From IMG/VR virus record IMGVR_UViG_3300049846_001431, positions 1-37,276 of that record: a DNA stretch of 37,276 bases; one strand, given 5' to 3'. Numbering within the stretch: position 1 is the first letter of the stretch; each line of letters opens with the position of its first letter. Of this stretch, positions 55-37,276 are shown piece by piece. Source of the stretch: a virus. Made by a program: the position numbers and the translations under genes. Below the pieces are notes generated by a model, which did not search any database, was not told the origin of the DNA, and was given only the letters and a program-made list of their open reading frames with translations.

Positions 55-924
55 CTACTCCATCACTACCGAGGGTTGGTAGACTTTGCTGCCCCGAGCC
101 CCGGTGGCACTGCGCTCTGCGTTGCTAGTGATTTCGTAACACTCATCGTATTCGTAAGCGTAATCCCCGTGCGCTGCGAGGCTGAGGGAGTGGAGCACAT
201 CTGCAACGACTGCAACCGGGAGGGCGAAGTCTCTCACCCCCGCAGCGGCCTTGCGGTAGAACCAGCCATTGCGTTCTCCGTTACCAGCGGCTGGGGGTTG
301 GGCAGCCGCGAGCCACGCTCGATAGCGCTTGAGTCTTGTGTCATCTTCCTGCACAACTTTTGGTGCAGATTTTTGTGCGGATTCATTCCACAATTCGTTG
401 CATCCGTAAATGTTCTTGATGTCATTTAGTAAATAACGTGTGGAGTTACATAGCAGTAGCTTCGTTACAGGTTTCGTTCCATATTTATGATTTATAAATC
501 CTGGTACTCGGAGGATGCGTGACACATCAATGGCCGCAGGGTCGCCCCCGGTGGCATGCACAACCGCTCTCTGCACACCTCTCCATACTTTGGTCTCTAC
601 CTCACCTGTGAGTAACCAATACGCCTGCGCTTTGCCAGGCGATGATTCTACCAAGATGCTTGGGGGGATAGCCCAGCTCGGTGGTACGCCTTTATCGTAA
701 TCGGCGTAAATGGCTCGCAACTTCACCAGGTTATCCATGGTGCGTCCCTTGCCATCCATGCCGTTAACCGTGCAGTAGATGTCCTTGCCAAGGTCTTCGT
801 TGTAGATTCGCAACTTCGTTTCTAACTTGTGGTAGTAACCGAAGAAAGGTTTTTTACCAATGACTACGAAGGTTTGCGGGTCGTCTCCACAGAGTGTCTT
901 GACAAAGGTATTGGCTGAATCCAT
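55..924 (-). CDS. PrimPol/RepB-type DNA primase-like protein
   Basis: A 289-aa protein with archaeo-eukaryotic-primase-like motifs in order: an acidic motif 'IYADYD', then 'SSPGKAQAYW' matching the second AEP motif, then 'DVSRILRVPGFINHK', which fits the conserved D/R..R.PG..N segment of RepB/PrimPol primases. The C-terminal third resembles a primase-associated helical region (inference). Members synthesise primers, and sometimes short DNA, at replication forks. The start at 924 has AGG 8-11 nt upstream; ATGs at 978 and 1059 extend the frame but lack a ribosome site and would cross the divergent metalloprotease gene. No DnaG-like primase or replicative helicase is seen in the window, so this may be the main primase. 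Confidence 0.7.
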   Translation of the reverse strand: MDSANTFVKTLCGDDPQTFVVIGKKPFFGYYHKLETKLRIYNEDLGKDIYCTVNGMDGKGRTMDNLVKLRAIYADYDKGVPPSWAIPPSILVESSPGKAQAYWLLTGEVETKVWRGVQRAVVHATGGDPAAIDVSRILRVPGFINHKYGTKPVTKLLLCNSTRYLLNDIKNIYGCNELWNESAQKSAPKVVQEDDTRLKRYRAWLAAAQPPAAGNGERNGWFYRKAAAGVRDFALPVAVVADVLHSLSLAAHGDYAYEYDECYEITSNAERSATGARGSKVYQPSVVME

Positions 925-973
925 AGTGTTAGCTACCTTAGCGGAACGATAGAAAGTTTGCAAGTTATGCCGC

Positions 974-1399
974 ATGTTGATAACGTATGCTCGTATAGAA
1001 GGCGGCAAGCCGGCGCAGCTGGAGGTACTTCGTGTTCTCTTCGCTGATATCGAAAGCATTCTTGGCCTCTGCGTGCGACCGCGTGAGGAGCGAACCGGGC
1101 TTGCAATCTACTTTTCCAGCCGTGATGAGGACGGTAATAACATTTGCAAATCGCAGTGGCTCGGCTATTATTTCGACAAGCAAATCTATTTGCGGCCGGG
1201 GCTGAGGGGAAACGAATTGTATGCGGTGGCGCTGCATGAGCTTGGGCATTATTGGGGACTCGACCACACGAGGCGGGGTATAATGGCGGCCGTGCAGAAC
1301 AGCAGTCCCGCTGGTAGGCTGTCGGTGAAGTGGCGACGGCGGTGCTTGCGCTCGTTAATGGGTGCGTTGCTGCGTAACAAGTTGCGGAGAATGAAATGA
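974..1399 (+). CDS. small metzincin-type zinc metalloprotease
   Basis: A 141-aa protein carrying a perfect metzincin zinc motif HExxHxxGxxH: HELGHYWGLDH at residues 88-98. It is followed by 'RGIM' at 101-104, which fits the Met-turn. The three His would bind zinc and Glu89 would be the general base. The domain is very small for the family, with under 90 residues before the motif. No signal peptide is evident, so it probably acts in the cytoplasm or virion. It is the first gene of the plus strand, divergent from the primase, and its stop overlaps the next gene by ATGA. The start has no good ribosome site. The target is unknown. Confidence 0.72.
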   Translation: MLITYARIEGGKPAQLEVLRVLFADIESILGLCVRPREERTGLAIYFSSRDEDGNNICKSQWLGYYFDKQIYLRPGLRGNELYAVALHELGHYWGLDHTRRGIMAAVQNSSPAGRLSVKWRRRCLRSLMGALLRNKLRRMK

Positions 1400-1809
1400 G
1401 CTTTGACGATGATGTCAGCTTTTATGCGCGTCAGGCGCGTATTGAGTGTGCGAAGGAGATAGAGAAAATCCGGGCTGCTTTGGTCGAAGCGATTAGGCTA
1501 GGCAATATTTTATCAGAGGTTGGACGTAAGCCAAATTCCGGTGGTCAGATGGCCTACAAGATCCAGCGTAACCCGAAGGTAGCAGCAGCGATTGAACTAC
1601 TCCGCTCACCAATTTCAACTAGCTTAAACCCCGCCGTCCAACTAGCCGATGTGGAGAGAGTGAGGAACGAAGCCCGAATGGCCCAAATCTATGTTCGATG
1701 GCGACCAGTGGACCGGGCGTTACGTGCTTGCTCGCGTGCGGGTGCTGAAAACTTAGACACACCGCGTCGGTCGATTTTATATGAAATCGGCTTGACGAAA
1801 TCAAGATGA
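1396..1809 (+). CDS. hypothetical protein
   Basis: A 137-aa protein that I do not recognise. Its start overlaps the metalloprotease stop by ATGA, which implies translational coupling. The first 40 residues are acidic and helical (S-F-D-D-D-V-S-F-Y-A-R onwards), the middle is basic, and the C-terminal part is Arg-rich without Cys clusters or membrane segments. It could be a partner or substrate of the metalloprotease, but only its position suggests this. Confidence 0.55.
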   Translation: MSFDDDVSFYARQARIECAKEIEKIRAALVEAIRLGNILSEVGRKPNSGGQMAYKIQRNPKVAAAIELLRSPISTSLNPAVQLADVERVRNEARMAQIYVRWRPVDRALRACSRAGAENLDTPRRSILYEIGLTKSR

Positions 1810-1849
1810 TGGGCGATACTCTAATCATGAAGACGGAACAAACGAACGA

Positions 1850-3537: not shown

Positions 3538-3996
3538 ATGTATGATGACCACGTTTATGACGATGACGGTGACGGCTTCCAATGCTGGTGCGGTGAGACC
3601 CACAAGCTGCCGGGGGCGGCTGAGACTATTATCGCAATGTGCGATAGTAAAGGTGAAGAGCAGCAACTCACGCCAGAGGAACAATACTACTTGCATGCTC
3701 TTGTGGTGAGCCGGGACAACCATCAGCCCGGTAAGCCGTTCATGTGTGTAAGTTGTGGAGCGTGTTGCACAGGTGCCGATAAAATCGAAGGATTCGCTCT
3801 CCCCACCAAGCCAGACGGCTCATGTATTTACCTTAAAGGGCGTTTATGTTCAATATATGATACCAGACCGCAGAGCTGCCATGTTGATAAGTTCGACTTT
3901 AAGAAAATCGGGTTGCACTCGATAGAAGAGTGGTATAGCGTTAACTACGCTGCTTGTGAGAGACTTATCCGTATCGGAAGGATACCAAAGGTATGA
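3538..3996 (+). CDS. YkgJ-family cysteine-cluster protein
   Basis: A 152-aa protein with the YkgJ signature: C70-x2-C73-x2-C76-C77 ('CVSCGACC'), then C96, C104 and 'YDTRPQSC' ending at C114. This arrangement defines the Zn/Fe-binding cysteine-cluster domain (formerly 'Fe-S oxidoreductase'), whose biochemical role is poorly known. An extra acidic N-terminal stretch holds a C-x-C pair at 16-18. It lies 2 bp after the preceding stop, and its own stop overlaps the thyX start by ATGA, so the two are translationally coupled. Confidence 0.8.
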   Translation: MYDDHVYDDDGDGFQCWCGETHKLPGAAETIIAMCDSKGEEQQLTPEEQYYLHALVVSRDNHQPGKPFMCVSCGACCTGADKIEGFALPTKPDGSCIYLKGRLCSIYDTRPQSCHVDKFDFKKIGLHSIEEWYSVNYAACERLIRIGRIPKV

Positions 3997-4757
3997 CCTC
4001 GGCCCCCGGTAGCATTCAAGTCCTTGACCACGGTTATGTAACATTGATTGAGTCTTGGGGCAGCGATGAGCGAATCATTGAGGCTGCTCGCATGTCTACC
4101 AACAAGGGTTTCCTAGGATGGGGTGAGACGTGTGCGGAGTGTGGATACGGTAGGGGCGACGACCATGAAGTAGGCTGTTCCAGACCGGAGAAGTGGAAAA
4201 GTGGGGATGAGAAATTGCTTCGTTACTTGTACATGAATAATCACTACACCCCGTTCGAAATGGCCGGGGCAGTGTTCGAGGTGCAAGCCCCCATCTTCGT
4301 GTTTCGCGAATGGCACAGGCATCGTACCCAAAGCTACAACGAGATGTCCGCACGCTACACACCGTTGCCAGACACTAACTATGTCCCAACCGTTGAACGA
4401 TTGATGGTCAATGCTGCCGGCACGAACACGCAGGCTAACAGAGTCGCAGGGGCTTCCTCTCTCATAGAGAGTAATGCTGCTGTCTTTATCGAAAGCCTAG
4501 AGATTCACTATAAGCGGGCGGAAGCTCTTTATAACTTCGCGTTAAACAACGGGGTCTCCAAAGAGTTAGCGCGTCTTGCGCTACCGGTGGGCCGGTATTC
4601 CCGAATGCGAGCGCAGGCGAACTTGCGTAACTGGCTGGGATTCTTGACCTTGCGCCAGGCGGATAATGCGCAGTGGGAGATTCGGCAATACGCGGACGCA
4701 GTTTGCAATCTCCTGAAGCCGCTGTTTCCGCGCACGATGCAACTATACCTTGAGTGA
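3993..4757 (+). CDS. thyX: flavin-dependent thymidylate synthase ThyX
   Basis: A 254-aa protein with the ThyX motif RHRxxSxNExSxRY at residues 109-122 (RHRTQSYNEMSARY) and a 'YTPFEM' segment before it. ThyX makes dTMP from dUMP using methylene-tetrahydrofolate, FAD and NADPH as a homotetramer. The length is usual for the family. Residues 43-66 hold an insertion with C47-x2-C50, H58 and C62, absent from the textbook enzyme and resembling a small zinc site. It is coupled to the YkgJ gene and followed by a 73-bp regulatory-looking gap. Confidence 0.95.
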   Translation: MTSAPGSIQVLDHGYVTLIESWGSDERIIEAARMSTNKGFLGWGETCAECGYGRGDDHEVGCSRPEKWKSGDEKLLRYLYMNNHYTPFEMAGAVFEVQAPIFVFREWHRHRTQSYNEMSARYTPLPDTNYVPTVERLMVNAAGTNTQANRVAGASSLIESNAAVFIESLEIHYKRAEALYNFALNNGVSKELARLALPVGRYSRMRAQANLRNWLGFLTLRQADNAQWEIRQYADAVCNLLKPLFPRTMQLYLE

Positions 4758-6699: not shown

Positions 6700-7020
6700 A
6701 TGCCAATGCCGACGTATAACGAGTTTTTTACAAACGAAGAGCAAGCAACCGGGGCGGCAGTACAAGCCCTCGTTCAGGTGTTGCAACCGCTGAACGATAG
6801 CGTTCGTGCACTCGCTGCCAATAATTTTCCCGAAAACGCCCAGAGGCGTTACCTGGCATTCATGGCCGAGGTTATCGGCGCACTCTATCGTGAAGTACCT
6901 TTGACATCTCAAGCTAAAGTGCAAGGTCTTGTTGACAAGGAGTTATTCGGTGTCGAGCCATCAAGTACCAGTGGTGAAGATTCAGGAAGTGAAACCGCAC
7001 CCGAACGCGGACAAACTTGA
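6700..7020 (+). CDS. hypothetical protein
   Basis: A 106-aa mostly helical protein ('AVQALVQVLQPLNDSVRALA') with a Ser/Glu-rich low-complexity tail. The last 71 bp overlap the RNA ligase start in another frame. No clear ribosome site is seen; it lies 6 bp behind the preceding stop. One copy of the GCNRCCGGGG motif lies inside it. Confidence 0.5.
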   Translation: MPMPTYNEFFTNEEQATGAAVQALVQVLQPLNDSVRALAANNFPENAQRRYLAFMAEVIGALYREVPLTSQAKVQGLVDKELFGVEPSSTSGEDSGSETAPERGQT

Positions 7021-8062
7021 TATCGCTACCATCGAAGGGTGGTCATGCGTGTGTGGCAAGGGAGAGTTCCCTGGAGCCGGTACGCTGGCGCTTTACATCC
7101 CAATCGATTCGGTGCTACCGGGGGCGGTCGAACAGACCCTGTTCGCTAATAGCAAGGTGAAACCGAACAACGGCCGCATTCGCACCGTAAAAATTCGCGG
7201 CGAAATCTCTCAGGGCATGCTCGTGTCACTGGACAAGTTCCCGCAGGTGCCGCGAAAGAAGGGCTTTGACGCCAGCGAGCTGCTGGGGATTACAAAGTAC
7301 CAGCCCCCGGCTGCTTCTTGGGAGCCACGGGAAAAGACCGCCAACAAGGTCAAGACGAAGAAGTCTCCCAATCCGAATTTTCACAAGTACACGGATTTGG
7401 AGAATATCAAGTGGTACACCAACGTCTTTGAAGAGGGAGAGCCGGTTGCTATCACGGAGAAGATTCATGGCACGAACTTCCGAGCTGGATACGTGAAGAC
7501 GGAAGTCAACACTTGGTGGAAGCGAGTCAAGAAGTTCTTTGGTGTTCTTGCCGAGTACGAATTCGTGCATGGCAGTCGCAATGTCCAGCTTCACGTCTGG
7601 GAGAACGGCAAAGGCACATATTACGGCAAGAACCTGTATCGCCAAGCCGCCATGGACTACAAACTCAAAGACAAGCTTCTGGGTGGAGAGGTCGTGTACG
7701 GAGAGGTTTACGGCACCGGCATTCAGAAGAACTATAACTACGGTTGCAAAAACGAAGAGCGGAAACTAGTTGTGTTCGACGTAATGAAAGATGGCAAGTA
7801 CCTCAATCATGAGGAGTTGGTCCTGTTCTGCCGTGCGCGAGACTTGCCAATGGTGCCGACGCTTTACACCGGCCCATTCAGTATGGACGTGCTCAAGACC
7901 CTCACCGAGGGCGATAGTGTGCTCGCGCCTGAGCAGAAGGTTCGTGAAGGGTGCGTTGTTCGCCCGCTGGAAGAGCGGAACCAAGATGGCCTTGGCAGAA
8001 AGATACTCAAGAGCATCAATCCGCTGTATCTGCTTCGAGACGACAACACGGACTTTCATTAG
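6950..8062 (+). CDS. RNA ligase, DRB0094 (Rnl5-like) family
   Basis: A 370-aa protein. The N-terminal about 100 residues form an OB-fold-like domain ('VKPHPNADKLDIATIEGW', also seen in EMAP-type tRNA-binding domains). The nucleotidyltransferase domain follows, with motif I E-K-I-H-G-T-N (Lys161 = adenylated lysine), motif III-like 'EFVHGSRN', motif IV 'VVYGEVYG', and motif V-like 'REGCVVRPL' with Lys near the end. An N-terminal OB domain before the ligase core is characteristic of the DRB0094 family, which seals 3'-OH/5'-phosphate RNA nicks. The GTG start is chosen because AAGGAG lies 7 nt upstream. Repair of host-cleaved tRNA is plausible beside the phage tRNA. Confidence 0.85.
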   Translation: MSSHQVPVVKIQEVKPHPNADKLDIATIEGWSCVCGKGEFPGAGTLALYIPIDSVLPGAVEQTLFANSKVKPNNGRIRTVKIRGEISQGMLVSLDKFPQVPRKKGFDASELLGITKYQPPAASWEPREKTANKVKTKKSPNPNFHKYTDLENIKWYTNVFEEGEPVAITEKIHGTNFRAGYVKTEVNTWWKRVKKFFGVLAEYEFVHGSRNVQLHVWENGKGTYYGKNLYRQAAMDYKLKDKLLGGEVVYGEVYGTGIQKNYNYGCKNEERKLVVFDVMKDGKYLNHEELVLFCRARDLPMVPTLYTGPFSMDVLKTLTEGDSVLAPEQKVREGCVVRPLEERNQDGLGRKILKSINPLYLLRDDNTDFH

Positions 8063-8088: not shown

Positions 8089-8274
8089 ATGCTCACACTC
8101 ACAGAGGCGTATGAAGAATTGCAGCGGCGTAAACGCTTGGCCAGGCGCATGCAGGAGATACATGAAAAGTACGCCAGACTAATAAGAGACAGCTATGCAT
8201 GCAACAACAGGCTTTTGATTATTTACGAGCAAACCGAGACAAGTTCCCAGACCGACTCCCAGAAGTTCTCCTAA
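8089..8274 (+). CDS. small helical hypothetical protein
   Basis: A 61-aa Arg/Leu-rich helical frame ('EELQRRKRLARRMQEIHEKY'). The first half looks like a genuine coiled coil, while the last 25 residues are read over the start of the ATPase gene. The ribosome site is weak. It may exist mainly to couple translation into the ATPase gene. Confidence 0.45.
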   Translation: MLTLTEAYEELQRRKRLARRMQEIHEKYARLIRDSYACNNRLLIIYEQTETSSQTDSQKFS

Positions 8275-9143
8275 GCGAGTATTTCGTTTCGCCCACCTCC
8301 CGAACCGAATTCATTTTTGTTGGTCCGCGTGAGAGCGGAAAGACAACGTGGCTGCGCCAAAACGGCTGGCTACGCGATGATGGGTCCATTGTTGGCAACG
8401 GGGTATACGGTTACGACGCTGACCAAGATGCGGCCGACCTTGCCACTATGGGCAAGAAGCTAACCGCCATGAAGCGTTTCAGAGAGAACGAATGGCGCAG
8501 TCATCCGGATTACGTGCCCATCGTGGTCATGTCCGATACTAATTGGGCGAGGCTAAAGAGCCGTACAACTCATTCTATTGATACTACACACATCGCTAAC
8601 ATCAAGTTCCCCCAGGCCGCATTTTACGCAGCTATCAAGAAACTTCCCGTCAATATAGAAGCCGTGTATGAAGTTTTCGGGGCTACGTTCTTGCTTGCTG
8701 CCACTGACGCACACGGTCGTTTGCTGCCGGGGCTGGCGTACGCTATGTTGCTCGCTACCCTCGACGAGGGCGGCCGTGTGACGAGAGCTAAGGCCCGAGC
8801 GCAAGCCAAAATTGCTGGTGAATGGTTAGCACAGCAGCAAGACCTAGCTCGATGGCTGATAGAATTGGTGCCATCATACAAGCGTCTGGTAGATAAACAG
8901 CAGACCGTCAGCTACCATCTTAAAACCGTCCGCTCCCGGTTGCTTAGCCACTCTTTTCGCACTCGCATCGAACGACCTTGGGGATTAGGCGTCAACGAAT
9001 ACATGAAATATCTCGAAGCTGCCGGGGTGTGGAGGGTAACCGATAAGGGTTATGCTCATTGGGGACGGCCGTATTCTATCGGCTCTGCTTATCATAAACT
9101 TAGCTTGACAACGAAAGCTATCGATGCAATACTACCGGCATGA
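8199..9143 (+). CDS. P-loop NTPase of unknown role
   Basis: A 314-aa protein with a Walker A motif G-P-R-E-S-G-K-T-T at residues 42-50 after a beta-strand 'TEFIFVG'. The strand 'YVPIVVMSD' may carry the second acidic residue. The C-terminal half is helical and basic, ending with a winged-helix-like region ('EYMKYLEAAGVWRVTDKGYAHW'). It does not match kinase, terminase or helicase motifs that I know. Its stop overlaps the serine recombinase start by ATGA, so the two are coupled and may act together. Confidence 0.65.
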   Translation: MQQQAFDYLRANRDKFPDRLPEVLLSEYFVSPTSRTEFIFVGPRESGKTTWLRQNGWLRDDGSIVGNGVYGYDADQDAADLATMGKKLTAMKRFRENEWRSHPDYVPIVVMSDTNWARLKSRTTHSIDTTHIANIKFPQAAFYAAIKKLPVNIEAVYEVFGATFLLAATDAHGRLLPGLAYAMLLATLDEGGRVTRAKARAQAKIAGEWLAQQQDLARWLIELVPSYKRLVDKQQTVSYHLKTVRSRLLSHSFRTRIERPWGLGVNEYMKYLEAAGVWRVTDKGYAHWGRPYSIGSAYHKLSLTTKAIDAILPA

Positions 9144-9949
9144 GCAAGAAAACAATCGCCTATTGTCGTGTTTCCACGGATAAGCAGATGGACGGTGCTG
9201 GTATTGACCAGCAGCGCGCCTCTATTATCGCTTACGCTATGGCTCACAACATCACGATTGATGAATGGGCTATCGAGCATGAAACGGGAACCACCGAGGA
9301 ACGAGAAGTTATCCAACGTCTTCTTGCTGAAAGCAAGGCAGAAAAAGTACAAGCAATTATCGTTGACCGAGTTGACCGACTTGGCCGCACTCTCCTCACC
9401 TGTGAAAGATTGCATGCGGGATTTAGAGCGGCAGCAGTGGAAGTCGTTTTTGCAAATTCTAGTTTTGGCACTGGTGCTTCTGGCGATTTGTTTCGTCAAA
9501 TTATGGGTGCTTTAGCGCAATACGACCGTACCTCTTGGCTTTCTCGTATGTCGCAGTGCCGTAAATCTGCGGTTGCACGCAAAGGCACATCGGCCGGTGG
9601 AAGGACAGTGTACGGGTATGTTTCTATCGGTGACGGCCGGCTTGCTGTGGATTCTGCTACTGTTGGTATTGTACAGCGTGCTTTTGAACTTGCGGACCTC
9701 GGACGGTCCATCACAGAAATCGCAAAACAACTGAATGCAGAAGGGTTTCGCAGTCGCAAGGGTACGCAACTGTTTCCACAGCAGGTTAAGCGTATCCTCG
9801 GCCGTAAGGAAGTTTATGAAGGAAAGACTGTACTGCATAAGGTACAGCTAGAAGCTGGTGTGAGGCCATCCCAGCCGGAGATTATCAATATGCATGTCAC
9901 GCAATCGAGAGCCGTTGTGGAGTCGGATACTCCAAGACCCCAAGTGTAA
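9140..9949 (+). CDS. small serine recombinase (resolvase/invertase family)
   Basis: A 269-aa protein. Resolvase catalytic domain: 'AYCRVSTDKQ' with Arg10 and nucleophile Ser12, then 'DRVDRLGR' at 76-83 giving the further catalytic arginines. A 'Recombinase' DNA-binding domain follows at about 150-235 ('GRTVYGY', 'GRSITEIAKQLNAEGF'). Large serine integrases exceed 450 residues and carry a zinc ribbon and coiled coil; both are absent here, so this is a compact form. Such enzymes cut and rejoin DNA through a 5'-phosphoserine link. It is coupled to the upstream ATPase. No tyrosine integrase is in the window, so this is the only candidate for integration, inversion or dimer resolution. Confidence 0.85.
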   Translation: MSKKTIAYCRVSTDKQMDGAGIDQQRASIIAYAMAHNITIDEWAIEHETGTTEEREVIQRLLAESKAEKVQAIIVDRVDRLGRTLLTCERLHAGFRAAAVEVVFANSSFGTGASGDLFRQIMGALAQYDRTSWLSRMSQCRKSAVARKGTSAGGRTVYGYVSIGDGRLAVDSATVGIVQRAFELADLGRSITEIAKQLNAEGFRSRKGTQLFPQQVKRILGRKEVYEGKTVLHKVQLEAGVRPSQPEIINMHVTQSRAVVESDTPRPQV

Positions 9950-10478
9950 AGAGTTTCTCAAGAAGCACAAAGACGAGTTTGCCAAAGAGAGCTTCGTTCC
10001 GCAGCCCATTGCCTTCCCTGAGCTGGGCATTCCTAGCAGCTTCATGGCTGACGTTATCAAGGAGGCAATGCCTTTTGATAACCCAGAACACCAGATGTTG
10101 GCCGAAATGTACCTGGCTATGTCGGCTAGGCGCATTGCTTCAAAGCTAGATTGGCCTCGACGTAAGGTGTATGTGCGTTTGCGCAATCTCAAGCGCATTG
10201 CCCTCAGACGGTGGAAATCTAAACGTCGTAAGATGGTAGGGGCTCGCGAAGAGACTCGGGACCTGGATACCAGCCCGGATTTGATAGCCCTTAAGGTAAA
10301 AACTTTTACCTTCCTTGGTAGAAGTAAAAATGCGTATCTAATTCAAGTAGATGAAGACGATGACTTGAAGTGGGTAGATGAGAACGGTCAGGCTTTTACA
10401 CAAGAAATTCAGGTAATACTAAATAATATTGAAGAATACGGTCAGGAGTTTGAACATGTCGATATCGACAACTCCTAA
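9894..10478 (+). CDS. putative HTH DNA-binding protein
   Basis: A 194-aa protein overlapping the end of the recombinase by 56 bp. Residues about 65-95 ('HQMLAEMYLAMSARRIASKL', then 'WPRRKVYVRLRNLKRIALRR') have the shape of a sigma-70 region 4 or other helix-turn-helix followed by a very basic tail. The C-terminal 50 residues are acidic. GGAG lies upstream of the ATG at 9894. It may be a transcription regulator of the phage, or an accessory to the recombinase. Confidence 0.55.
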   Translation: MSRNREPLWSRILQDPKCKEFLKKHKDEFAKESFVPQPIAFPELGIPSSFMADVIKEAMPFDNPEHQMLAEMYLAMSARRIASKLDWPRRKVYVRLRNLKRIALRRWKSKRRKMVGAREETRDLDTSPDLIALKVKTFTFLGRSKNAYLIQVDEDDDLKWVDENGQAFTQEIQVILNNIEEYGQEFEHVDIDNS

Positions 10479-10944
10479 CTTTTTGCTAGCAATCGACCCA
10501 GGTGCATCCGCGGGATGGGCGCTTTTCGAAGAGGGAAAGCTAACCGCTTATGGGACCGCCCGCGGTAGCATGTGGCGCAGTTTTGTCCAGGACATGGCTC
10601 CCAAGCTGAAAAACTGGTACCAGAACGGTACTGCTATCATCGAACAAGGCTGGACAAATCGCAGCAAGAGTGCCCTGACTTTAGGTCAACGCAGAGGGCT
10701 CGCTCAAGCTGCGGCCGAGTTTTTTGGCTTCGACCAAATCGAGTACATCGCCTCATCCACATGGATGAATGGCCTGTACGGCTCTATTCACGGCAAGGAT
10801 ACGAAGCGGCTTTCTACCGAGCGGGTTAGAACTGTGCATAATCTTGTTGACCTAACTCACGATGTGTGTGACGCTATCAATATCGGAGAGTATTTTTTAC
10901 AAAACTGTAAAACCGGGTTGAAAAATGCCAAGAAAAAGCGGTAA
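10456..10944 (+). CDS. RuvC-like Holliday-junction resolvase
   Basis: A 162-aa protein with the RuvC/RNase H-fold opening 'LLAIDPGASAGWAL' (first catalytic Asp14), a second strand ending in Glu ('TAIIEQGW'), and a C-terminal 'LTHDVCDAI' giving the last acidic residues. Such enzymes cut four-way junctions produced by recombination-dependent replication. The start at 10456 has AGGAG 8 nt upstream; a longer frame to 10429 has none. It lies with Cas4-like, Sak4-like and SSB genes, which supports the role. Confidence 0.82.
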   Translation: MSISTTPNFLLAIDPGASAGWALFEEGKLTAYGTARGSMWRSFVQDMAPKLKNWYQNGTAIIEQGWTNRSKSALTLGQRRGLAQAAAEFFGFDQIEYIASSTWMNGLYGSIHGKDTKRLSTERVRTVHNLVDLTHDVCDAINIGEYFLQNCKTGLKNAKKKR

Positions 10945-11207: not shown

Positions 11208-11579
11208 ATGGCTAACCTTGAAAAACAAAGAGAGGCAAGCAGGCGTTGGAGAGAAAAGAATCCGAAGTTTACTTCTAAATGGCGACGCACACCGAGCGGC
11301 CTGTACTCAGCGTACAAATGTTCCGCTAAAAGTAAATTTCTATCTTTCACGCTTACAAAGCAGCAGTTTATATCTTTGGCACGTTTGCCTTGTACTTACT
11401 GTGGTGAGTTTATAGAACCTGGTGGTCTCGATAGAGTTGATAGTAGTCTAGGCTATACATTGAATAATGTGGTTTCTTGTTGCTCTCAGTGTAACACTAT
11501 GAAAATGGATTATTCGACTAGTGAATTCCTGAGTAAAGTAGCTAGAATATATCATAATATAGGACGGTCTGTATCATGA
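11208..11579 (+). CDS. HNH endonuclease, probable free-standing homing type
   Basis: A 123-aa protein. The basic N-terminus (R/K-rich, residues 1-45) is followed by C62-x2-C65, 'GLDRVDSSLGY' with the metal-binding core at 73-83, Asn86/87, and C92-x2-C95-N-T-M-K. This is the usual order of small phage HNH nucleases with a structural zinc. The gene is more AT-rich than the flanking genes and sits between replication genes, as mobile homing endonucleases do. Start is ATG at 11208, 1 bp after the previous stop; its stop overlaps the next gene by ATGA. Confidence 0.8.
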   Translation: MANLEKQREASRRWREKNPKFTSKWRRTPSGLYSAYKCSAKSKFLSFTLTKQQFISLARLPCTYCGEFIEPGGLDRVDSSLGYTLNNVVSCCSQCNTMKMDYSTSEFLSKVARIYHNIGRSVS

Positions 11580-23802: not shown

Positions 23803-25768
23803 GTTGTTTCAGCCTTAAAGAGCGGTATCGCATGACCAGTCGATTGATGAAATGGAAAGTTCTCCAGCTAATAGACTGCTCAGCATGTCCAGCACGTAAG
23901 TCTTTGACCATTGACCGAACGATACGGCCCATAATTTTTGCAACGAATTTAGACTTTCGCATCTTGAATACAACTGGAGTCGCCCAGGCCCAATACGCTT
24001 TGAATTCCGAGAGAGACATGGTTCTCAGCCCGTGCTCGGACATTGCGCTTCGCTCGTCTGGAGTTATAAAGCCTTGGGCACAAGCCTCGGAGCAAACAAT
24101 TGTGCCTCCGGCTGCTTTTTTAGCTTGTTCCTTACCGGTCGGAGACAGGGAAGTCATGTCGTAGTACGTAAGGCCTGTAGTTGGGTCCTTGTACTTGTTC
24201 TGTACCTCAGCTGCGTTCACGCCCTTCGGCAAATCTCGAATATAGGTCACACCGTCTCGAATCATGTTTGACGGTCCGCCATGTTCTGCGGCATCTTTTT
24301 GTGAGGCAATGGAGGTAGTGGTCCGAGGGCCCGTATCGTAAGACGCGTTGCCGTTTTTATCAGTCGTAATGGGATTCCAAAAGTCGTAATCCTTTGGTGT
24401 CAGACCTTTTTTCTTAGCCTCACTCTGACCAAAATCCTGTGCAACGATATCGGCAGCTGCTCGTTTGTCTTCGGCAGAGGCGTTAGCATCAGAAATCGTC
24501 TTTTTTGCTGCCGAAACTTCCTCAGACGAGAACTGGCTACCGGGTTTACCGCTAAATCCGCCAGTCTGACCAAACTGCTTGACATACTGTTTAGCGATGT
24601 CCAATTGCTCACGCGAAAGCTCATCTGCCCGCGCCCCAGACCGAGCCGCATCGAGAGCAGAAGCGATTTGGAACGGGGTCGAGGTACGGCCAAACAACTC
24701 TTGACGTTGGGCACCAAGATTCTCTTGCTGAATACCTAGCTCGCGGCCTTGCTGCTCACTGAGCGTGTTACCATATCGCTCACCCATAAGGTTTTTCTGG
24801 CCGAGGTTACCAACCAGCTCCGCTTGACGCGCGGTCAGATTGCGGTCCTGGATACCCAGCTCGGTAGCTTGTTGCTGGCCCAAAGCTTGACCATACATTT
24901 GCGTACCGAGATTGCGCTGTGCCAAGTTGTCCAAAATCAGCTTCCGGGCAAGGTCTCCGCTCTGCGTTTGCGCATCGCTGATAGCGCGCTGAGATAGTGC
25001 CGCACCAGCCCCACCGCGCACACCGTTTGAGGCAGCAATACCACTCATCCGTTGCAGGTTGATAGCAAGTTGCCGGTTAATATCCGCCTCGCCTTGTTCG
25101 CGAGCCGCTCGCATTTCGTCCGGGGTCATGCCCTGCATACCAGCCTGAAGCTTGGCTAGATATTGCTGCGCCTCTGCTGCACGCGGGTCAATGGCTGTGC
25201 CAAAGGCCCCGGTAGCATATGCATCAGTGGACATTCCAGCCTTTTGCTGTGCCAGTAACGCATTGATTTCGGCCTGGCGAGGGTCGTTGATACGGCCCAT
25301 GCTGCCCTCAGCGAAGTGCTTATTGGCCCAATCTTCACCTTTGGAAACATCGCCCCAGAACTGGCCCTCCGCCGTCTTATCGAGTTCACCGCGCGCCTGT
25401 GCGGCTTTGAAAGCAGGGTCATTAAGGTTTTGAGCAGCTTTTGCGAAATCTGCCATGGTTTGTGGGTCGAGAACACGAGGTCCAGCTACGGGCTGACCGG
25501 TCTGCGTAGTTGTGGTACCAACCGGTCTACCCATATCCGTTGGACCAGCATTACCACTTGGCATACGAGTCGCAGTAACCATGCCACCGGGGGTGGGTTG
25601 GGGCTGTGGTTGAGGTTGCGGTTGTGGCGTGATAGTAGGACGCGGGTCGAACCTGGTCCCACCGAGAATATCAGTTACCGCATCCCGCGCGCCAAACTGA
25701 GAGCCGCTGCGTGTAAGAAGTTGAGCCGCCATGTCAGAAACGTTCCTCGTTATAAGATTTTTAGTCAT
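23774..25768 (-). CDS. virion/ejection protein with Gln-rich repeats
   Basis: A 664-aa protein. Residues about 45-60 are a PQ repeat. About 290-370 hold two repeats of a Gly/Gln/Leu pattern ('LGIQDRNLTARQAELVG' and 'LGIQQENLGAQRQELFG'). A C-terminal basic domain follows from about 560, with 'CSEACAQGF' and many Arg/Lys. The ATG at 25768 overlaps the nozzle stop (ATGACTAA); an internal ATG at 25732 has an AGGA site and may be the true start. Internal-virion role inferred. Confidence 0.55.
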   Translation of the reverse strand: MTKNLITRNVSDMAAQLLTRSGSQFGARDAVTDILGGTRFDPRPTITPQPQPQPQPQPTPGGMVTATRMPSGNAGPTDMGRPVGTTTTQTGQPVAGPRVLDPQTMADFAKAAQNLNDPAFKAAQARGELDKTAEGQFWGDVSKGEDWANKHFAEGSMGRINDPRQAEINALLAQQKAGMSTDAYATGAFGTAIDPRAAEAQQYLAKLQAGMQGMTPDEMRAAREQGEADINRQLAINLQRMSGIAASNGVRGGAGAALSQRAISDAQTQSGDLARKLILDNLAQRNLGTQMYGQALGQQQATELGIQDRNLTARQAELVGNLGQKNLMGERYGNTLSEQQGRELGIQQENLGAQRQELFGRTSTPFQIASALDAARSGARADELSREQLDIAKQYVKQFGQTGGFSGKPGSQFSSEEVSAAKKTISDANASAEDKRAAADIVAQDFGQSEAKKKGLTPKDYDFWNPITTDKNGNASYDTGPRTTTSIASQKDAAEHGGPSNMIRDGVTYIRDLPKGVNAAEVQNKYKDPTTGLTYYDMTSLSPTGKEQAKKAAGGTIVCSEACAQGFITPDERSAMSEHGLRTMSLSEFKAYWAWATPVVFKMRKSKFVAKIMGRIVRSMVKDLRAGHAEQSISWRTFHFINRLVMRYRSLRLKQHGKTVKIAA

Positions 25769-28598
25769 CCGTGAGGTTAGGCTTGTTTTCAGTTGCTACT
25801 TCAGTAGCCCAGCCGCTAATAATCGGCTTTTCTGTGCCTACACTATTGCTAAACCTGTACCGGATTGCCTTGACTTTTTGGTTGGTGAGGGCAACGACCT
25901 CATTGTTTGGAGCCGAAGCGCCATTGAGCGTTATAGTTCTAGAAACCGTGCTACTTTGCGCCCAATCCTTGTCCATCGTCACAGTGAGCGTAAAAGAGTT
26001 GGTTTGACCTTCTTTGACGCTAAAAAGCTGCATTCTCGGAAACACTTTGAGCAGGCTAGGGTCCTCAAGGTCTTCCCATGCCGTAATATACTCGAAGTTG
26101 ATGGCTCCGGTGTAATCCTTAGGCCAGTAGTCCGAAAGTTTCCACAAAGACGATTTCAACGTACTGGAGCTGTTCAGCTGACGAGTGGCACCGTAAATTT
26201 CGTCATTGTGAACGGCCAATCCACCGAGCGCATCTAGACCGGTCCACGTGAACCATTTGTCTTCCACAAAGTCGTACACGCAAAGCACGCCCGGATTTGA
26301 AGTCGGGGAGTAGTTGATTGTTGATGGCTCAACGAATGCGCGTTCAAGTGCGGAGGCTCCGCCTCTCCGAATAGCGTCAAAGACTTGCTCCCCGGTGGTA
26401 TATTCACTAGGAATCGGTTTCGGAACAAAGCAGGCATACCAACGCTTGGAGGGAACAACCACGCTCTGCGCCAAGTCCGGTTTGTAAGCATAGTCAGTTC
26501 CGCTATACGGCAAAGCATGACCGATTATTTCGTTTTGAATCGTGACCGGCAAAAGTGGTCGGCTGATATTAAAGCTGCGGATATCAGTTTGCGACATACC
26601 TTTGAGGAATACAAACCCTCTTGACCCCAGATATATGACGCCATTCGGAACAACCTGCACCGAACCTGAGGACACGCAGCCGTCAGCGCCAGACACTTTA
26701 GAGACGGTAAAAGATTCGGCAGACGAAAGAGAGCCGGAAACTGTCCAAACCCCCTTAGACGTAAGAATGTAGAGCGTATCCGCAAAGGATGCGGTTGCCA
26801 TAATATCGACATCAGAGTCAGAAAACAGCAGGCTATTCGACGGAGGAAAATACTCCGAATTCGGTTCAGACCAAGCAACCTTGGTGAACGGCATGCGAAT
26901 ATTTTGTAGTCCCGGCTCACTCAGTTCATTTGACAAGTCACGACAGATAACAACAAGACGTGTCTGGTGCACCGATACATGACGGGTCACTCTAGGTGCG
27001 CCCGAGCGCGTGAACGCGGTATCCGCATACTGTGCGTGTGTAATTAGGGTAGCATCCGTAACTGTGTCAGTTGTAGCCGTACTCTCAGGTATCAATGCAG
27101 TTGTGGTCTGTGTAGCTGCAAACTGCTTGGCAAGATAATAAGTAGACCCGTTAGCTACAGTACGATAAATGTTCCATGTACCACCGACATGGAAATACTC
27201 TGGCCATACGGGCGGGGCAGTGCCGTCAAACATTGTGGCTGCCGTTGTGCTACCAGGTCCGTTAATTACCATTCTGCTTATTGTCGTACCGGTTGCTGCA
27301 TCCCACCAATATACCTTTTCCCCAATCTGCAAATCATTCACAGTGGCGGAACCATTTCCCAGAACCGTACCGGCAACATTTTGGTATGTGTCGCAGTTGT
27401 AGTGCGGCAATCTTCGTCCGTTGCTCCGACTGGAGTAGCCATGAGAAAGCGGAATTACGCCACCGGGGACGAATTCTTCCGGTAGAGTGACAGTGAATCC
27501 ATTTACCGCACCGCCTACTGTTACCGACGTGTCAAGGGGTGTACTCTCATGCACCGTCCCGTTAGGGTCATAGGTAGTAAAGGTGATTCGGTATTTATAC
27601 GTACCTGCATTGAGACCGACCCCTGCGATTGCGGTTGGAGCAGTCTGAATAGCCGCTCGGGCCGCTAGGTCTGGTACACCAGCCATCATAGACCTGAAGC
27701 CGTTGAATTTCATCAATGGATGAGACTTGCCGGCCCAGAAAAGCGAATCGTTGAACGTGACATGTGAAAGTGTGTGGTCATCAAAGCCGAGCAGAGGCGG
27801 ATGTAGTTCACCAGAGACAGCACTGGAAATATTGCCGATGCCAAGCCCGGTTGCAGTTGGTACCTTGAACAGAGCATGTGCGTAAATGTATAAGGCAGCA
27901 CCGGGGCTGCTAGGAACACCGACATTAGCAATACCGTCCGTTATGAACATCGTATTTGCCAAAAATCCGGTTTGGCCGTAGCTATCGATTGGAGGAGTCC
28001 AACCGCCAGGGATTGCACCACCAAGATTGGAGAAAGTGAAGACATCGGAAATGGTCTGTGCCATAACTTCTACCGAGTCTACTTTCAGTCTGAAAATGAG
28101 TACGCCATTTTCCCAATTCATCGAATGCTGAACAAGGGCGTTGCTTGAATACTGCTTGGCAATGACAATCACGGGCACAACGCGAAACAAGTTGCTAGAG
28201 GTACACATGTACAACTCTGGACAAGCGCGCTGATGATTAACATCCCCACCCCGGATGGTAGCAAGAGGAATCACAGCCGGAGGAGTACCGCCGCCGTATC
28301 CCGTCCAAAGGTCTTTGTATAAATCGCAGTTATACGAGAAGAGTCCAAGGCTTCCGAATCGAGTAAATTTTAGCGGTGCAAGAGCCGGTGGACCAGCATA
28401 TGTGTAAACAATTGGAGGCGCGTCAGACGTGGATAGGTCAGTGACTTTCTGGCAACCAGGGCGCTGAACGATATGACCGTACTCATCAATGTACCAGTTA
28501 GCGCCCTGGGCGGTATCCTTATCTTGCGTAAGGGGATTCGGAGTTGTTGCATACCCCTTGAAATCTTTACGCACGATTTTTCGGTAGTTATCAGCCAT
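25761..28598 (-). CDS. large tail hub/nozzle-like protein
   Basis: A 945-aa beta-rich protein, the largest gene here. It opens 'KIVRKDFKGYATTPNPLTQD' and 'YIDEYGHIVQRPGCQKV', a style typical of nozzle proteins of short-tailed phages (tail tubular B / gp10-like). It has many Thr/Val/Gly strands suggesting beta-propeller or platform domains. It lies immediately after the adaptor gene in transcription order, as nozzle genes do. Assignment is by size, style and position. Confidence 0.6.
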   Translation of the reverse strand: MADNYRKIVRKDFKGYATTPNPLTQDKDTAQGANWYIDEYGHIVQRPGCQKVTDLSTSDAPPIVYTYAGPPALAPLKFTRFGSLGLFSYNCDLYKDLWTGYGGGTPPAVIPLATIRGGDVNHQRACPELYMCTSSNLFRVVPVIVIAKQYSSNALVQHSMNWENGVLIFRLKVDSVEVMAQTISDVFTFSNLGGAIPGGWTPPIDSYGQTGFLANTMFITDGIANVGVPSSPGAALYIYAHALFKVPTATGLGIGNISSAVSGELHPPLLGFDDHTLSHVTFNDSLFWAGKSHPLMKFNGFRSMMAGVPDLAARAAIQTAPTAIAGVGLNAGTYKYRITFTTYDPNGTVHESTPLDTSVTVGGAVNGFTVTLPEEFVPGGVIPLSHGYSSRSNGRRLPHYNCDTYQNVAGTVLGNGSATVNDLQIGEKVYWWDAATGTTISRMVINGPGSTTAATMFDGTAPPVWPEYFHVGGTWNIYRTVANGSTYYLAKQFAATQTTTALIPESTATTDTVTDATLITHAQYADTAFTRSGAPRVTRHVSVHQTRLVVICRDLSNELSEPGLQNIRMPFTKVAWSEPNSEYFPPSNSLLFSDSDVDIMATASFADTLYILTSKGVWTVSGSLSSAESFTVSKVSGADGCVSSGSVQVVPNGVIYLGSRGFVFLKGMSQTDIRSFNISRPLLPVTIQNEIIGHALPYSGTDYAYKPDLAQSVVVPSKRWYACFVPKPIPSEYTTGEQVFDAIRRGGASALERAFVEPSTINYSPTSNPGVLCVYDFVEDKWFTWTGLDALGGLAVHNDEIYGATRQLNSSSTLKSSLWKLSDYWPKDYTGAINFEYITAWEDLEDPSLLKVFPRMQLFSVKEGQTNSFTLTVTMDKDWAQSSTVSRTITLNGASAPNNEVVALTNQKVKAIRYRFSNSVGTEKPIISGWATEVATENKPNLTDD

Positions 28599-29827: not shown

Positions 29828-30283
29828 TTATCGCCTCAAGTACGCTCGTGAGAGCACTTCGTCCATACCAATGTTCGCAGTTCTTCGAAGGTCGCGGTTA
29901 CCGCTGATATTTCCAATATTGCTTTGAATGGCCGAGAGCAGCAGGTTTTGCAGCGCATCGCGTTTACGACCGGCAAACAACTCCTGCTCGGACTTCAGCT
30001 GCATCTTCGCCATGTTTTCAGACGCTGCTCGCGACAAATCCGCTTGCTGAGCCGATGACTGGATAGCCGCTTGCTGAGCCGCCAACTGCGCTATCGTTCC
30101 GAGAGTCGCACCGGCCGCCTGAATTCCAGCCCCAGCCGCAGCAGCACCACCAGCTGAGAGTCCACCACCGTTACTCGGAGTCGGTGTAGATGCAGCCGGG
30201 GGTGCAGAGGTTTCCGGTACCTCAAGTGGGGTGCGCTTGGGCCAATCGGACTGCCAGCCTGTGAACATCTGCGAAAATGCCAT
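29828..30283 (-). CDS. Ala/Gly-rich virion protein
   Basis: A 151-aa protein: Pro/Ser N-terminus, an Ala/Gly-rich hydrophobic helix at 45-75, then a Gln/Ser/Ala coiled coil. It resembles its neighbour at 30290 in layout, so the two may be paralogous small ejection proteins. AGGG lies about 9 nt upstream. Confidence 0.5.
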   Translation of the reverse strand: MAFSQMFTGWQSDWPKRTPLEVPETSAPPAASTPTPSNGGGLSAGGAAAAGAGIQAAGATLGTIAQLAAQQAAIQSSAQQADLSRAASENMAKMQLKSEQELFAGRKRDALQNLLLSAIQSNIGNISGNRDLRRTANIGMDEVLSRAYLRR

Positions 30284-30711: not shown

Positions 30712-31332
30712 TTACGAATCCTGTCCAAGAAAGCTGCGAATCAACGATGGGGGCGCCAGAATCGAGTAGCAAGCAGGCACCAGACCCCTAGGCGTACCAA
30801 AGCAAATCTTGGCTTGAACTATCCCTACTAAAACATTATTCGCCACTGCCGGACCGCCTGAATTGCCACCCGCAATTAGTACGTCAGAAATCATGACCGG
30901 TCTCGGCTTAGAACTGCGGTCCTCAAAGGTAATCTTGTCGTATCCACTGACTACACCTGACGTTGTACGTCTGGGTCCGCCAGCTGGATACCCTTGTACG
31001 ACAATTCTCGTACCCTCGTCTGGGTTCGTGCTTGCGATAGCTAGCACAGTCACCGAGTTACAAGGTATCAAAGTGTCCACAACCGCCAAATCGGCCGCTG
31101 CATCAAACTTTGTCACAATGCCGAACATAAGCTCTTTTCCACATCGCATGAAGACCGGTTCATACAGGCCCTCAACCGCATGCGCAGCAGTGAGCGCATG
31201 CGTTGGCGAGAGCAGAGCAGCAGAGGCTACCGTATCACCTTCGAGGTCTAGAATCGGAACAGAGTAGTTAGGTGCCGAAGATGCCACCGGGGCGGCAGAG
31301 AGAAAAAGTGAAGCAATAATTCCAAGCAACAT
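30712..31332 (-). CDS. exported trypsin-like serine protease
   Basis: A 206-aa protein. Signal peptide about 1-20 (cleavage near 'VASSA'), then the chymotrypsin-fold triad: His51 in 'LTAAHAV', Asp81 in 'DAAADLAVV', Ser158 in 'GGNSGGPA'. Three or four further Cys could form disulfides in the periplasm. It sits between virion genes, transcribed with them. Such proteases usually degrade or mature proteins outside the cytoplasm; a virion or cell-envelope target is likely but unknown. Weak ribosome site. Confidence 0.85.
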   Translation of the reverse strand: MLLGIIASLFLSAAPVASSAPNYSVPILDLEGDTVASAALLSPTHALTAAHAVEGLYEPVFMRCGKELMFGIVTKFDAAADLAVVDTLIPCNSVTVLAIASTNPDEGTRIVVQGYPAGGPRRTTSGVVSGYDKITFEDRSSKPRPVMISDVLIAGGNSGGPAVANNVLVGIVQAKICFGTPRGLVPACYSILAPPSLIRSFLGQDS

Positions 31333-33279: not shown

Positions 33280-33711
33280 TTACGCCAGTCCTTGCATTGC
33301 GGTAATAGCAAGCGTTGTCGCAGCGGAGCCGCCCGTTCGTTTTCCAACAACCCGAACCCATTTGTAGCAAGCCGGGATTGGGATAACGATTTGACCGTTA
33401 CCCAACATCTGGAAATTAGCCGTGCGAATAGGAATTGTAGAATCCGTCCCGCTCGTTGTCGGACTGCCTTGCGCTGCTAGGTCAAACCAATCTGAGCTAC
33501 CGGGGGCGGTGTCACCAGCCGTCAATGCGGCTTGTGCCTTGATTTCGACGGAAGTCGCGTCAAACCCAGCTACAACACAGAACAACAACAGCTGGTTGAA
33601 ATTCTGCATACGATAGGTACTGACGTTGGAGCTATCATACGAGGTGCCTAGAGACGTAGTGGCAGCTCGCAAGACCTTTCCGTCTGAGGAGACTTGTGGA
33701 TTATAGCTCAT
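33280..33711 (-). CDS. virion decoration-like beta protein
   Basis: A 143-aa beta-sandwich-like protein ('MQNFNQLLLFCVVAGF' and 'IPIPACYKWVRVVGKR'), similar in style to the gene at 32434. It is separated by 3 bp from the next gene. Probably a minor capsid or fibre-associated protein. Confidence 0.55.
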   Translation of the reverse strand: MSYNPQVSSDGKVLRAATTSLGTSYDSSNVSTYRMQNFNQLLLFCVVAGFDATSVEIKAQAALTAGDTAPGSSDWFDLAAQGSPTTSGTDSTIPIRTANFQMLGNGQIVIPIPACYKWVRVVGKRTGGSAATTLAITAMQGLA

Positions 33712-35999: not shown

Positions 36000-36011
36000 G
36001 AATCATAAAAT

Positions 36012-36035
36012 CTCCGCGCCAACACATGGGGGCGC
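36012..36035 (-). promoter_or_regulatory. hairpin immediately upstream of the capsid ribosome site
   Basis: On the minus strand GCGCC (36035-36031) pairs with GGCGC (36020-36016) around a 10-nt loop, and the Shine-Dalgarno GGAG (36015-36012) follows directly. Such leader hairpins can protect mRNA or tune translation of the most abundant protein. Confidence 0.4.
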
Positions 36036-36074
36036 CTTACAGGTAAAAAGGAACTAAACTTTTTGGGGTTCTAA

Positions 36075-37276
36075 CTAAAAAAGGTCTGCTTCGCTGAAGG
36101 ACGTGAAATCTTCGCGTGAAGTTTTGGTCTTAGCGGTCTTTGTACCCGCCTTGGCCATAGTAGCAACCGGGGCGGCAGCAACTTTCTTACTAACAGTTGT
36201 CGCGCGCTTCTTCTGGACTGCTTCCTTGAACACTTCCTTAACGTCGTCTGGCGTCCAATCCGGGTTATCACGGAGCATCTTTGCCGCTTGGTCCCACAAT
36301 TTCTCGTTCTTAGCGAGTTCTGGGTCCACCGACTCCAACACTTCTTTTGCCGTTTTATAACTTCGGTTGATACCAATTTGGTCGGCCACTACCTCAGGAG
36401 TAATCGTAGCAGGGTCCCCACCCTGTTTACGCACCAGCTCGGCCAACCCATCCCGAGTCTGGACAAACTCCTCAATCGAGGATTTCGCACCGTCTATTGC
36501 CTTGGTCACCCGCTCCTGGAATGTCCTTTCGGCCTGTTCCTGTTGCTGGCGCTGGATAGCCTGCGCATACTTCGATTTCGTATATTCTTGCTCTTCCTTG
36601 ACCTCAAACAGTTCGCGTTGTTCTGGAGTCAGTTTCGCCAACTCCTGCGCCTGTTTCATCAGGGAATCGCGCAAGTTTTTCACATATTGACGAGCATCGA
36701 TTTTCTCACCGAGCCCGTTCATATCAATCATTGCCTGCACAGCTTCGAAGATTTTTCCTTCGGCAGCCTTGTTGTGCATATCCGTAATCAACTGACCATG
36801 CCGCGTACGGACATTTTCGAAGTTCTGAATCTCGGCCGCAGCTTGCTTCCGCTGCGCCGCCAATTCATTGTACTTACGGTCCCAAGCAACCTTACCGGCG
36901 AAGTTCTCCAAGAGGTCCTTCACCGCCACCGGCTGCATTTTGCCGTCTACTTTCCACTCAATGACAGCCGTTTCCGACAGTGGAACCGTCGTGTCACCGG
37001 CCTTGAAGGTCAGCTGCTTTGGCTCTTTCGCGCCGGGCACCGCCGCTGTAGCTGCTGCGGCTGCCGCTGCTTTTGCAACTGCTTCTGCCTCGGCCTCTTT
37101 CGGGTCCTTAGCAACTGCCGCGTCACCGGACTCTTCCGGTGCTTCTACAGTAGTCTTTTTCTCAGCTTCGGCCGAAACATCTTTTTTTGGTGTTTCGCTC
37201 GAAGTCGCCTCTTCGTCATCGCTTCCGGAATCAAAGCCCGGAACATTTAATGAGGAGAGGTCAGAATCAAACAGGT
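36075..37276 (-). CDS. scaffold-like virion assembly protein, N-terminus missing
   Basis: The frame is open to the window edge, giving at least 400 residues. It is acidic, Ala/Glu/Gln/Lys-rich and mostly helical with coiled coil ('NELAAQRKQAAAEIQNFENV'), preceded by a long acidic Ala-rich N-terminal region and ending 'SFSEADLF'. A GTG at 37040 is in frame but not the real start, because the frame continues upstream. This is the layout of phage scaffolding proteins, and it directly precedes the major capsid gene. A capsid-assembly protease could be fused upstream, out of view. Confidence 0.7.
   Translation of the reverse strand, partial: LFDSDLSSLNVPGFDSGSDDEEATSSETPKKDVSAEAEKKTTVEAPEESGDAAVAKDPKEAEAEAVAKAAAAAAATAAVPGAKEPKQLTFKAGDTTVPLSETAVIEWKVDGKMQPVAVKDLLENFAGKVAWDRKYNELAAQRKQAAAEIQNFENVRTRHGQLITDMHNKAAEGKIFEAVQAMIDMNGLGEKIDARQYVKNLRDSLMKQAQELAKLTPEQRELFEVKEEQEYTKSKYAQAIQRQQQEQAERTFQERVTKAIDGAKSSIEEFVQTRDGLAELVRKQGGDPATITPEVVADQIGINRSYKTAKEVLESVDPELAKNEKLWDQAAKMLRDNPDWTPDDVKEVFKEAVQKKRATTVSKKVAAAPVATMAKAGTKTAKTKTSREDFTSFSEADLF

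Follow-up and report, generated by a model that had tools for sequence, protein, structure and literature searches.

A dispersed ten-base motif in a phage genome, a candidate start-site signal for a phage-encoded primase

The virus record IMGVR_UViG_3300049846_001431, a stretch of 37,276 nucleotides that was analyzed over its whole length (the window; its phage is called W below), carries a ten-base motif, GCNRCCGGGG, scattered along both strands, which raises the question of what such a word is for and what reads it. We propose that a DNA-processing enzyme encoded by the phage reads these 28 sites as a signal spread over the whole genome, and the role that we tentatively favor is that of start sites for an archaeo-eukaryotic primase (AEP). 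The observations behind this proposal are selection at the DNA level, dispersal within genes irrespective of their direction, site turnover, diverged motifs in relatives, and enrichment of the shorter word G/CTGTGG in other phages with a related module.

The 28 exact copies, 19 on the plus and 9 on the minus strand as the first-pass annotation of the window had counted, span positions 99 to 36172, against an expectation of 0.47, and correspond to a density of about 750 core sites per Mb (28 in 37 kb). The largest count in 100 dinucleotide shuffles of W was 3. Single-base variants were scarce (2 copies of GCNYCCGGGG and 0 to 6 for all other single changes), and because these neighbors are nearly absent, the core can be given sharply as GC-N-R-CCGGGG. 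An unbiased gapped 8-mer scan, in which hits less than 150 bases apart were merged, returned GCNNCCGGGG as the top word of W with a score of 32.4 (30 observed, 1.0 expected), and two overlapping halves of W both returned the same top word (18.2 and 11.7). As yardsticks, the same scan gave 17.4 for Chi of phage P1 (first 50 kb) and 12.8 for a promoter-like word of T7; no word in lambda scored more than 6.9, which is also what phages lacking a clear word reach. By this one scan, the W motif outscores both P1 Chi and the T7 promoters.

The exact cores read GCCACCGGGG at 99..108 (-), 546..555 (-), 18084..18093 (-), 23336..23345 (+), 25583..25592 (+), 27459..27468 (+), and 31283..31292 (+); GCGGCCGGGG at 1192..1201 (+), 20425..20434 (+), and 21925..21934 (+); GCTGCCGGGG at 3606..3615 (+), 8723..8732 (+), 9018..9027 (+), 14003..14012 (+), 21696..21705 (-), and 22733..22742 (-); GCTACCGGGG at 4004..4013 (-), 7114..7123 (+), 11827..11836 (+), 12460..12469 (-), 17017..17026 (+), 17707..17716 (+), 25207..25216 (-), and 33496..33505 (+); GCAACCGGGG at 6745..6754 (+) and 36163..36172 (+); and GCAGCCGGGG at 7305..7314 (-) and 30192..30201 (+). 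All 28 lie within 49 open reading frames (ORFs) picked from the ORF list, and 26 of 28 lie in ORFs under a simple longest-ORF model, in agreement with the earlier description of the sites as almost all coding. In the 49-ORF set, the sites were distributed over four classes of strand and phase (sense in phases 0 and 2, with 9 and 6 sites, and antisense in phases 1 and 2, with 7 and 6 sites), and therefore no peptide explains the motif. Codon-preserving shuffles left a mean of 1.8 copies (maximum 7; n = 1000) in this set and 4.1 (maximum 8; n = 200) under a second gene model, so that neither these shuffles, proposed beforehand as a check, nor the dinucleotide shuffles ever approached the count in W. 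The data thus support the earlier claim that the motif is selected at the DNA level and not for a peptide. The flank fared less well: instead of a shared ATG before and GGCGG after the core, we found mostly A or T, in either order, at -2/-1 and a loose G/C-rich tail, and inspection by eye found the full ATGCTACCGGGGGCGG at no site.

Two uses of dispersed sites were tried and rejected. Were they targets of the phage's serine recombinase, crossing over at dozens of places would fragment the genome, an argument from reasoning only; as restriction or methylation sites, the motif would meet no methylase named among the 23 W proteins scanned, and it is in excess rather than avoided. Separately, TTGATA, CTACCA/CTACCAA, and TTGATACC are also dispersed in W, about 3 to 11 fold enriched by the dinucleotide model.

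Many copies would also result if the phage simply had in common with its host a word that runs through the host genome, as a codon, repeat, or uptake signal. We used a stricter pattern, WWGCNRCCGGGG, which covers 23 of the 28 W sites by eye (about 617 per Mb), on 670 genomes (369, 142, 80, and 79 drawn around Pseudomonas, Rhodospirillales, Bacteroidetes, and Verrucomicrobiales genomes, respectively). None of these sampled genomes, which may not include the host, exceeded about 26 per Mb (by eye, lengths rounded). This result leaves room for a host word, and some genomes of the Verrucomicrobiota sample did exceed the reversed control (e.g., G643, 40 versus 2). However, the top words differed in pieces of G643 and G663 (172 and 184 kb), where the core reached no more than 47 and 125 sites per Mb, compared to about 750 in W, and the codon-preserving shuffles abolish the motif excess. 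We therefore consider a shared host word scarcely credible. Within the candidate list of the first-pass annotation, primase start sites and a Chi-like signal survive, while a host-wide motif or uptake signal found no support in the 670 genomes. A scan of 84,980 genomes with a pattern from the capsid alignment matched 27 stretches and no relatives, and a host pattern scan matched at least 120 stretches, of which 80 were listed with one match each; no inference was drawn from the latter. In G663 (L189-L198), words of the AGCTTGGTCG and CCAAGCTGGG type occurred 15 to 17 times in 184 kb.

The orientation of the sites relative to genes was random, with 12 sense and 14 antisense in W, 11 and 16 in its relative G001, and 7 and 13 in its relative G002, which bears out the earlier statement that strand is independent of gene direction and argues against transcription-linked sites. 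T7-type promoters were rejected on this ground. The same observation weighs against silencing sites of the stoperator kind, to which an immunity repressor would bind. Cluster A mycobacteriophages do carry asymmetric sites of 13 to 14 bp, dispersed in 20 to 30 copies and drifting in sequence between relatives (PMC6550527 and PMC9283540), and W encodes a repressor-sized 194-aa protein whose gene lies upstream of a PD-(D/E)XK exonuclease gene. In the same two papers, however, stoperators are mostly oriented with transcription and lose function on reversal, whereas orientation in W is random, and most of the motif sites lie inside genes instead of between them. This explanation is accordingly judged highly improbable.

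To find relatives of W, a viral collection was scanned with single W proteins and with alignments. The matches included G001 (57 kb), G002 (51 kb), and G004 (36 kb), with capsids at 81 percent for G001 and about 71 percent for G002; G004 is the same phage as G001, read across the ends of G001, and was not counted separately. The other matches were G003, a piece of 6.6 kb, the distant capsid relatives G005 and G006, and loci with a distant polymerase, which numbered 21 after L156, L015, and L016, pieces of G002, G001, and G004, had been set aside. The two ends of G001 (L010:1-253 and L012:17013-17267) are 98.8 percent alike over about 255 bases, and G004 spans the joint, indicating a terminal repeat or a circular map; a short tandem array of the (TACGGC)n type at L010:6090-6380 gives a large k-mer excess of its own.

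The W core itself was found once in G001 and three times in G002. Each of these relatives carries its own dispersed motif in the same register as that of W, YYAGCYRCTGYGGKG in G001 and about GRRRCCGSGG in G002, with codon-shuffle z-scores of 14.5 and 8.7, which are optimistic because the motif definitions were chosen from the same data. The excess was weakest in G002, where the gapped 8-mer scan gave 11.5 and 9.5 compared to 6.8 to 8.2 in other phages. We mapped homologous sites via protein alignments with a looser GCNRCCGNGG (32 W sites, 17 mappable in G001 and 16 in G002). No site was shared with G001 (0/17), and 2 of 16 were shared with G002, at 546..555 in the same orientation and at 1192..1201 in the opposite one. 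The first-pass annotation had named lack of the motif at homologous sites of relatives as grounds for giving up its claim and, taken literally, such a lack is what these relatives display. As their own version of the motif is present at other places, we read the non-shared sites as turnover, with individual sites gained and lost and the motif frequent throughout.

W, G001, and G002 have in common a cassette of the AEP, a 314-aa protein, a serine recombinase, the 194-aa protein, a RuvC-like protein, the exonuclease, a Sak4 protein, and the polymerase. G001 and G002 are the two motif-bearing relatives with the full cassette, while G005 and G006 share only structural genes with W, contain no more than 3 and 0 copies of a looser GCNRCYGNGG, and have top words at background level. 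No motif was seen in the short 6.6-kb G003. The 21 polymerase loci had no word of the form of the W motif; some of them share one extra gene by tblastn (RuvC, ThyX, or the exonuclease), L160 and L161 are near-duplicates, and 3 of the 21 had other words above background (L175, 12.3; L177, 9.4; L174, 9.1). In L175, there was a strong excess of TTCGAGCG, with 15 observed versus 1.0 expected in 15 kb.

Which member of the cassette could read the motif? One alternative is another lineage DNA-binding protein acting in genome organization, origin firing, or packaging, for which the 314-aa P-loop protein (8199..9143, plus strand) and the 194-aa protein (9894..10478, plus strand), helix-turn-helix-like by eye, are candidates. 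Both are lineage-only proteins conserved in G001 and G002; all three motif-bearing relatives had them, the other sequences searched alongside did not, and neither had a match in the phages searched. The modeled 314-aa protein gave weak fold matches of the Orc1/Cdc6 type, all above an E-value of 0.001, but this model is poor (mean predicted local distance difference test score [pLDDT] of 67) and too weak to use. Since neither protein was found in the nine phages with TGTGG words described below, they cannot account for the wider word, and we hold this alternative to be unlikely.

The leading candidate reader is the RepB'-type AEP encoded at 55..1059 on the minus strand, at the left end of W. 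It matched Pfam RepB_primase with 41.3 bits (cut-off 24.3) and, by sequence profile, structures of RSF1010 RepB' (3h25, E-value 0.0013, and another, 0.0019). Its structure model, which is weak (mean pLDDT 55.8), gave fold matches to S-2L PrimPol and RepB' that for this reason only back the Pfam and PDB sequence matches. In the proposed mechanism, the replication fork would open the duplex and expose single-stranded template, the AEP would recognize the motif, or its C-rich complement, on the single strand, and a primer would be laid at the site. Sites in such a role would be required each 1 to 3 kb, with exact position irrelevant and genes ignored, and the motif sequence would drift along with the enzyme. 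We infer from these data that the primase is the reader, which strand it reads, and that CCGGGG in W and CTGYGG in G001 are one signal drifted apart. The pRN1 primase prefers GTG. RSF1010 RepB', by sequence the primase of solved structure closest to that of W, reads long ssi sites, and GTG has been proposed as its start (PMC4434180).

The arrangement of the sites was also informative. When W, G001, and G002 are placed in a common orientation, all three have minus sites leftward and plus sites rightward (two-sided P values with the main patterns of 0.20, 0.02, and 0.013, respectively; with other patterns, 0.38 in W and 0.04 and 0.009 in G001, and in G002 0.7 with 6 sites, 0.12 with 10 sites, and 0.008), and this polarity fits a process that is directional along DNA. 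The plus strand sites of W were evenly spaced (coefficient of variation [CV] 0.46, P = 0.00025), with a largest gap of 3.1 kb.

GTGTGG/CTGTGG, the word inside the motif of G001, led beyond the lineage. An excess of GTGTGG or CTGTGG was first seen in four phages with related replication proteins (Librie, PMBT14, MW202455, and a Desulfofustis phage), and five phages retrieved after the word had been seen (JacoRen57, Muddy, Tlacuache, YuuY, and STP12) all carried it, with codon-shuffle z-scores of 6.1 to 13.0. Across all nine, z was 5.0 to 14.0, compared to 3.2 for lambda and 2.8 for T7. The word was found by inspection, and for three phages the form scored was the one noticed in the phage itself, namely GTGTGGCC for Librie, CTGTGG for the Desulfofustis phage, and both for MW202455. 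GTGTGG was the top non-palindromic 6-mer in six of the nine (PMBT14, MW202455, JacoRen57, Muddy, Tlacuache, and STP12), while in the Desulfofustis phage, Librie, and YuuY the word was not the top 6-mer. Several records were scored in part, namely P1 (50 of 94.8 kb), T5 (20 of 121.75), PMBT14 (29.5 of 47.8), JacoRen57 (31 of 52.4), Muddy (27.6 of 48.2), Tlacuache (25.9 of 42.7), YuuY (30.3 of 41), Librie (38.5 of 39.9), and the Vibrio phages 159E36-3 (39.9 of 44), 1.250 (30.4 of 60), and 1.066 (34.4 of 47). In Librie (L201) and YuuY (L206), GTGTGG was enriched and CTGTGG strongly depleted (5 in each versus 33 and 27 expected, respectively).

All nine word-rich phages encode PolA, and eight have an AEP by profile; Librie and YuuY each carry a gene annotated as a Cas4 family exonuclease. 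They do not amount to nine independent cases, since JacoRen57 and Muddy both belong to Mapvirus and YuuY and Librie are both Microbacterium phages. Recorded hosts were Mycobacterium, Microbacterium, Pseudomonas, and Serratia, with two records naming none, and this diversity makes a phage factor more likely than a host factor as the common cause. Among 27 controls without a detected AEP, many being incomplete sequences of 12 to 22 kb and with STP12 treated separately, none reached a score of 2 (largest 1.9). What the word goes with is a phage module that has PolA and usually also a Cas4-like exonuclease and an AEP; the primase is not singled out. Among the matches listed in searches of open-licence titles and the starts of abstracts, neither a dispersed GTGTGG word in phages nor the W motif was described.

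Nearly the same facts are accounted for by a close rival, a Chi-like signal, at which a recombination nuclease-helicase would switch mode so that marked DNA is recombined and not degraded. The reader would be either the phage's Cas4/RecB-like exonuclease with Sak4, or the host RecBCD or AddAB. The W motif shares with Chi that it is dispersed, asymmetric, G-rich, and located in genes on both strands; as a 10-mer starting with GC and ending with GG it resembles GCTGGTGG, and its minus-left, plus-right order would face an enzyme entering from either end. The layout of Chi in P1 is alike, with 27 sites (z 14.4) that occupy the first 50 kb on both strands and mainly fall inside genes, and Chi over-representation in phages has been published (PMC3784561). 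However, the W density was approached in none of the 670 sampled genomes (best about 26 versus about 617 per Mb), which may not include the host, W has its own Sak4-like recombinase, and Chi spacing in P1 is irregular (CV 1.32 and 1.04), unlike that of the W plus strand. GTGTGG being common to phages of unrelated hosts speaks against a host-read Chi, and the locus L170 has the exonuclease and polymerase by profile and no word (15 kb only). We rate a Chi-like role as somewhat less probable than priming, itself a tentative choice; priming accounts better for the regular spacing in W and for the GTG.

Several results weigh against priming by the AEP. STP12 had the strongest GTGTGG excess (74 versus 17.6), yet no AEP was found by profile in its whole 36 kb, whereas the exonuclease profile matched seven of the nine phages including STP12, which the Chi-like explanation accounts for better. 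Of eleven named AEP-positive phages, eight had TGTGG words and three Vibrio phages did not, and therefore the cassette, and not the AEP alone, tracks the word. The reversed word was raised too, though less, in STP12 (9.4), JacoRen57 (5.7), Muddy (3.3), and Tlacuache (3.1). Neither W nor G002 has a TGTGG excess, and plain CTGTGG in G001 was only mildly up (54 versus 35); the place of W and G002 in the word series rests on the register aligned with the longer motif of G001. A 22-kb piece of G002 alone was unremarkable in the scan. Regular spacing was strong on the W plus strand only (P = 0.07 for the W minus strand, 0.11 and 0.39 for G001, 0.80 and 0.23 for G002), and the polarity, with P values of 0.7 and 0.12 for other G002 patterns, could in part follow gene direction. 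W sites had no hairpin excess, with a mean 50-nt folding energy of -12.2 compared to -12.3 for shuffles, and hairpin elements were rejected as an explanation because none exceeded the shuffles. Lastly, known long initiation sites of such enzymes have very few copies, two in NrS-1 (PMC7102993) and one per strand for RSF1010 ssi (PMC4434180).

A broader proposal, which we advance with more reserve than priming in W, is that a module of PolA, a Cas4-like nuclease, an AEP, and often Sak4 may write its own licensing word, mostly G/CTGTGG, genome-wide in phages of several bacterial phyla. In the W lineage, this word would have lengthened to a code of 10 to 14 bases, specific to the lineage and co-evolving with the reader, by which the phage's DNA could be distinguished from foreign DNA when it is primed or recombined.

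The gene layout of W gives the setting. The left half carries replication and nucleotide genes on the plus strand and the right half lysis and structural genes on the minus strand; no end repeats were found in W, and the record is probably a fragment. On the plus strand, the other cassette genes and their neighbors are the serine recombinase (9140..9949; Pfam Resolvase and Recombinase), the RuvC-like Holliday junction resolvase (10429..10944; PHROGs), the PD-(D/E)XK exonuclease that is the candidate reader in recombination (11576..12490; PHROGs and Pfam), the Sak4-like recombinase ATPase (12780..13592; PHROGs), a DUF669/single-strand-binding-like protein (13595..14044; PHROGs and Pfam), and the family A DNA polymerase (14318..16186). 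The serine recombinase, which resembles a large-type enzyme cut short, is flanked by the lineage-only 314-aa and 194-aa genes (8199-10478, plus strand). W also has a tRNA-Met gene (anticodon cat; 6345-6418, plus strand), a Matrixin-like metallopeptidase (974-1399, plus strand; Pfam), and a trypsin-like protease (30712-31332, minus strand; Pfam).

Dispersed functional words are already known in phages as Chi, promoters, and stoperators. A strong dispersed word tied to a phage replication/recombination cassette, changing from one relative to the next and still discernible in Mycobacterium, Microbacterium, Pseudomonas, and Serratia phages, would, if true, be a new layer of phage genome organization, and the word offers a directly testable site for primases with poorly known start rules and could be used to type replication modules.

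W shares features with four known systems and differs from each. The RSF1010 RepB'/ssiA/ssiB system has an AEP of the same Pfam family and a long sequence-specific initiation site with GTG (PMC4434180), but its sites are 40-nt hairpins, one per strand, whereas W has 28 short sites and no hairpin excess. The NrS-1 PrimPol, like the proposed reader in W, is a phage AEP with a sequence-specific 8-nt start site, but its two recognition sequences lie near the genome center (PMC7102993). Cluster A stoperators resemble the W sites in number, length, asymmetry, and drift between relatives, but are oriented with transcription in short intergenic spaces (PMC6550527 and PMC9283540), and the W sites are neither. 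Chi in P1 is similar in density, G-rich, asymmetric, and located in genes on both strands (PMC3784561); it is read by a host enzyme and irregularly spaced in P1, whereas W has its own recombinase.

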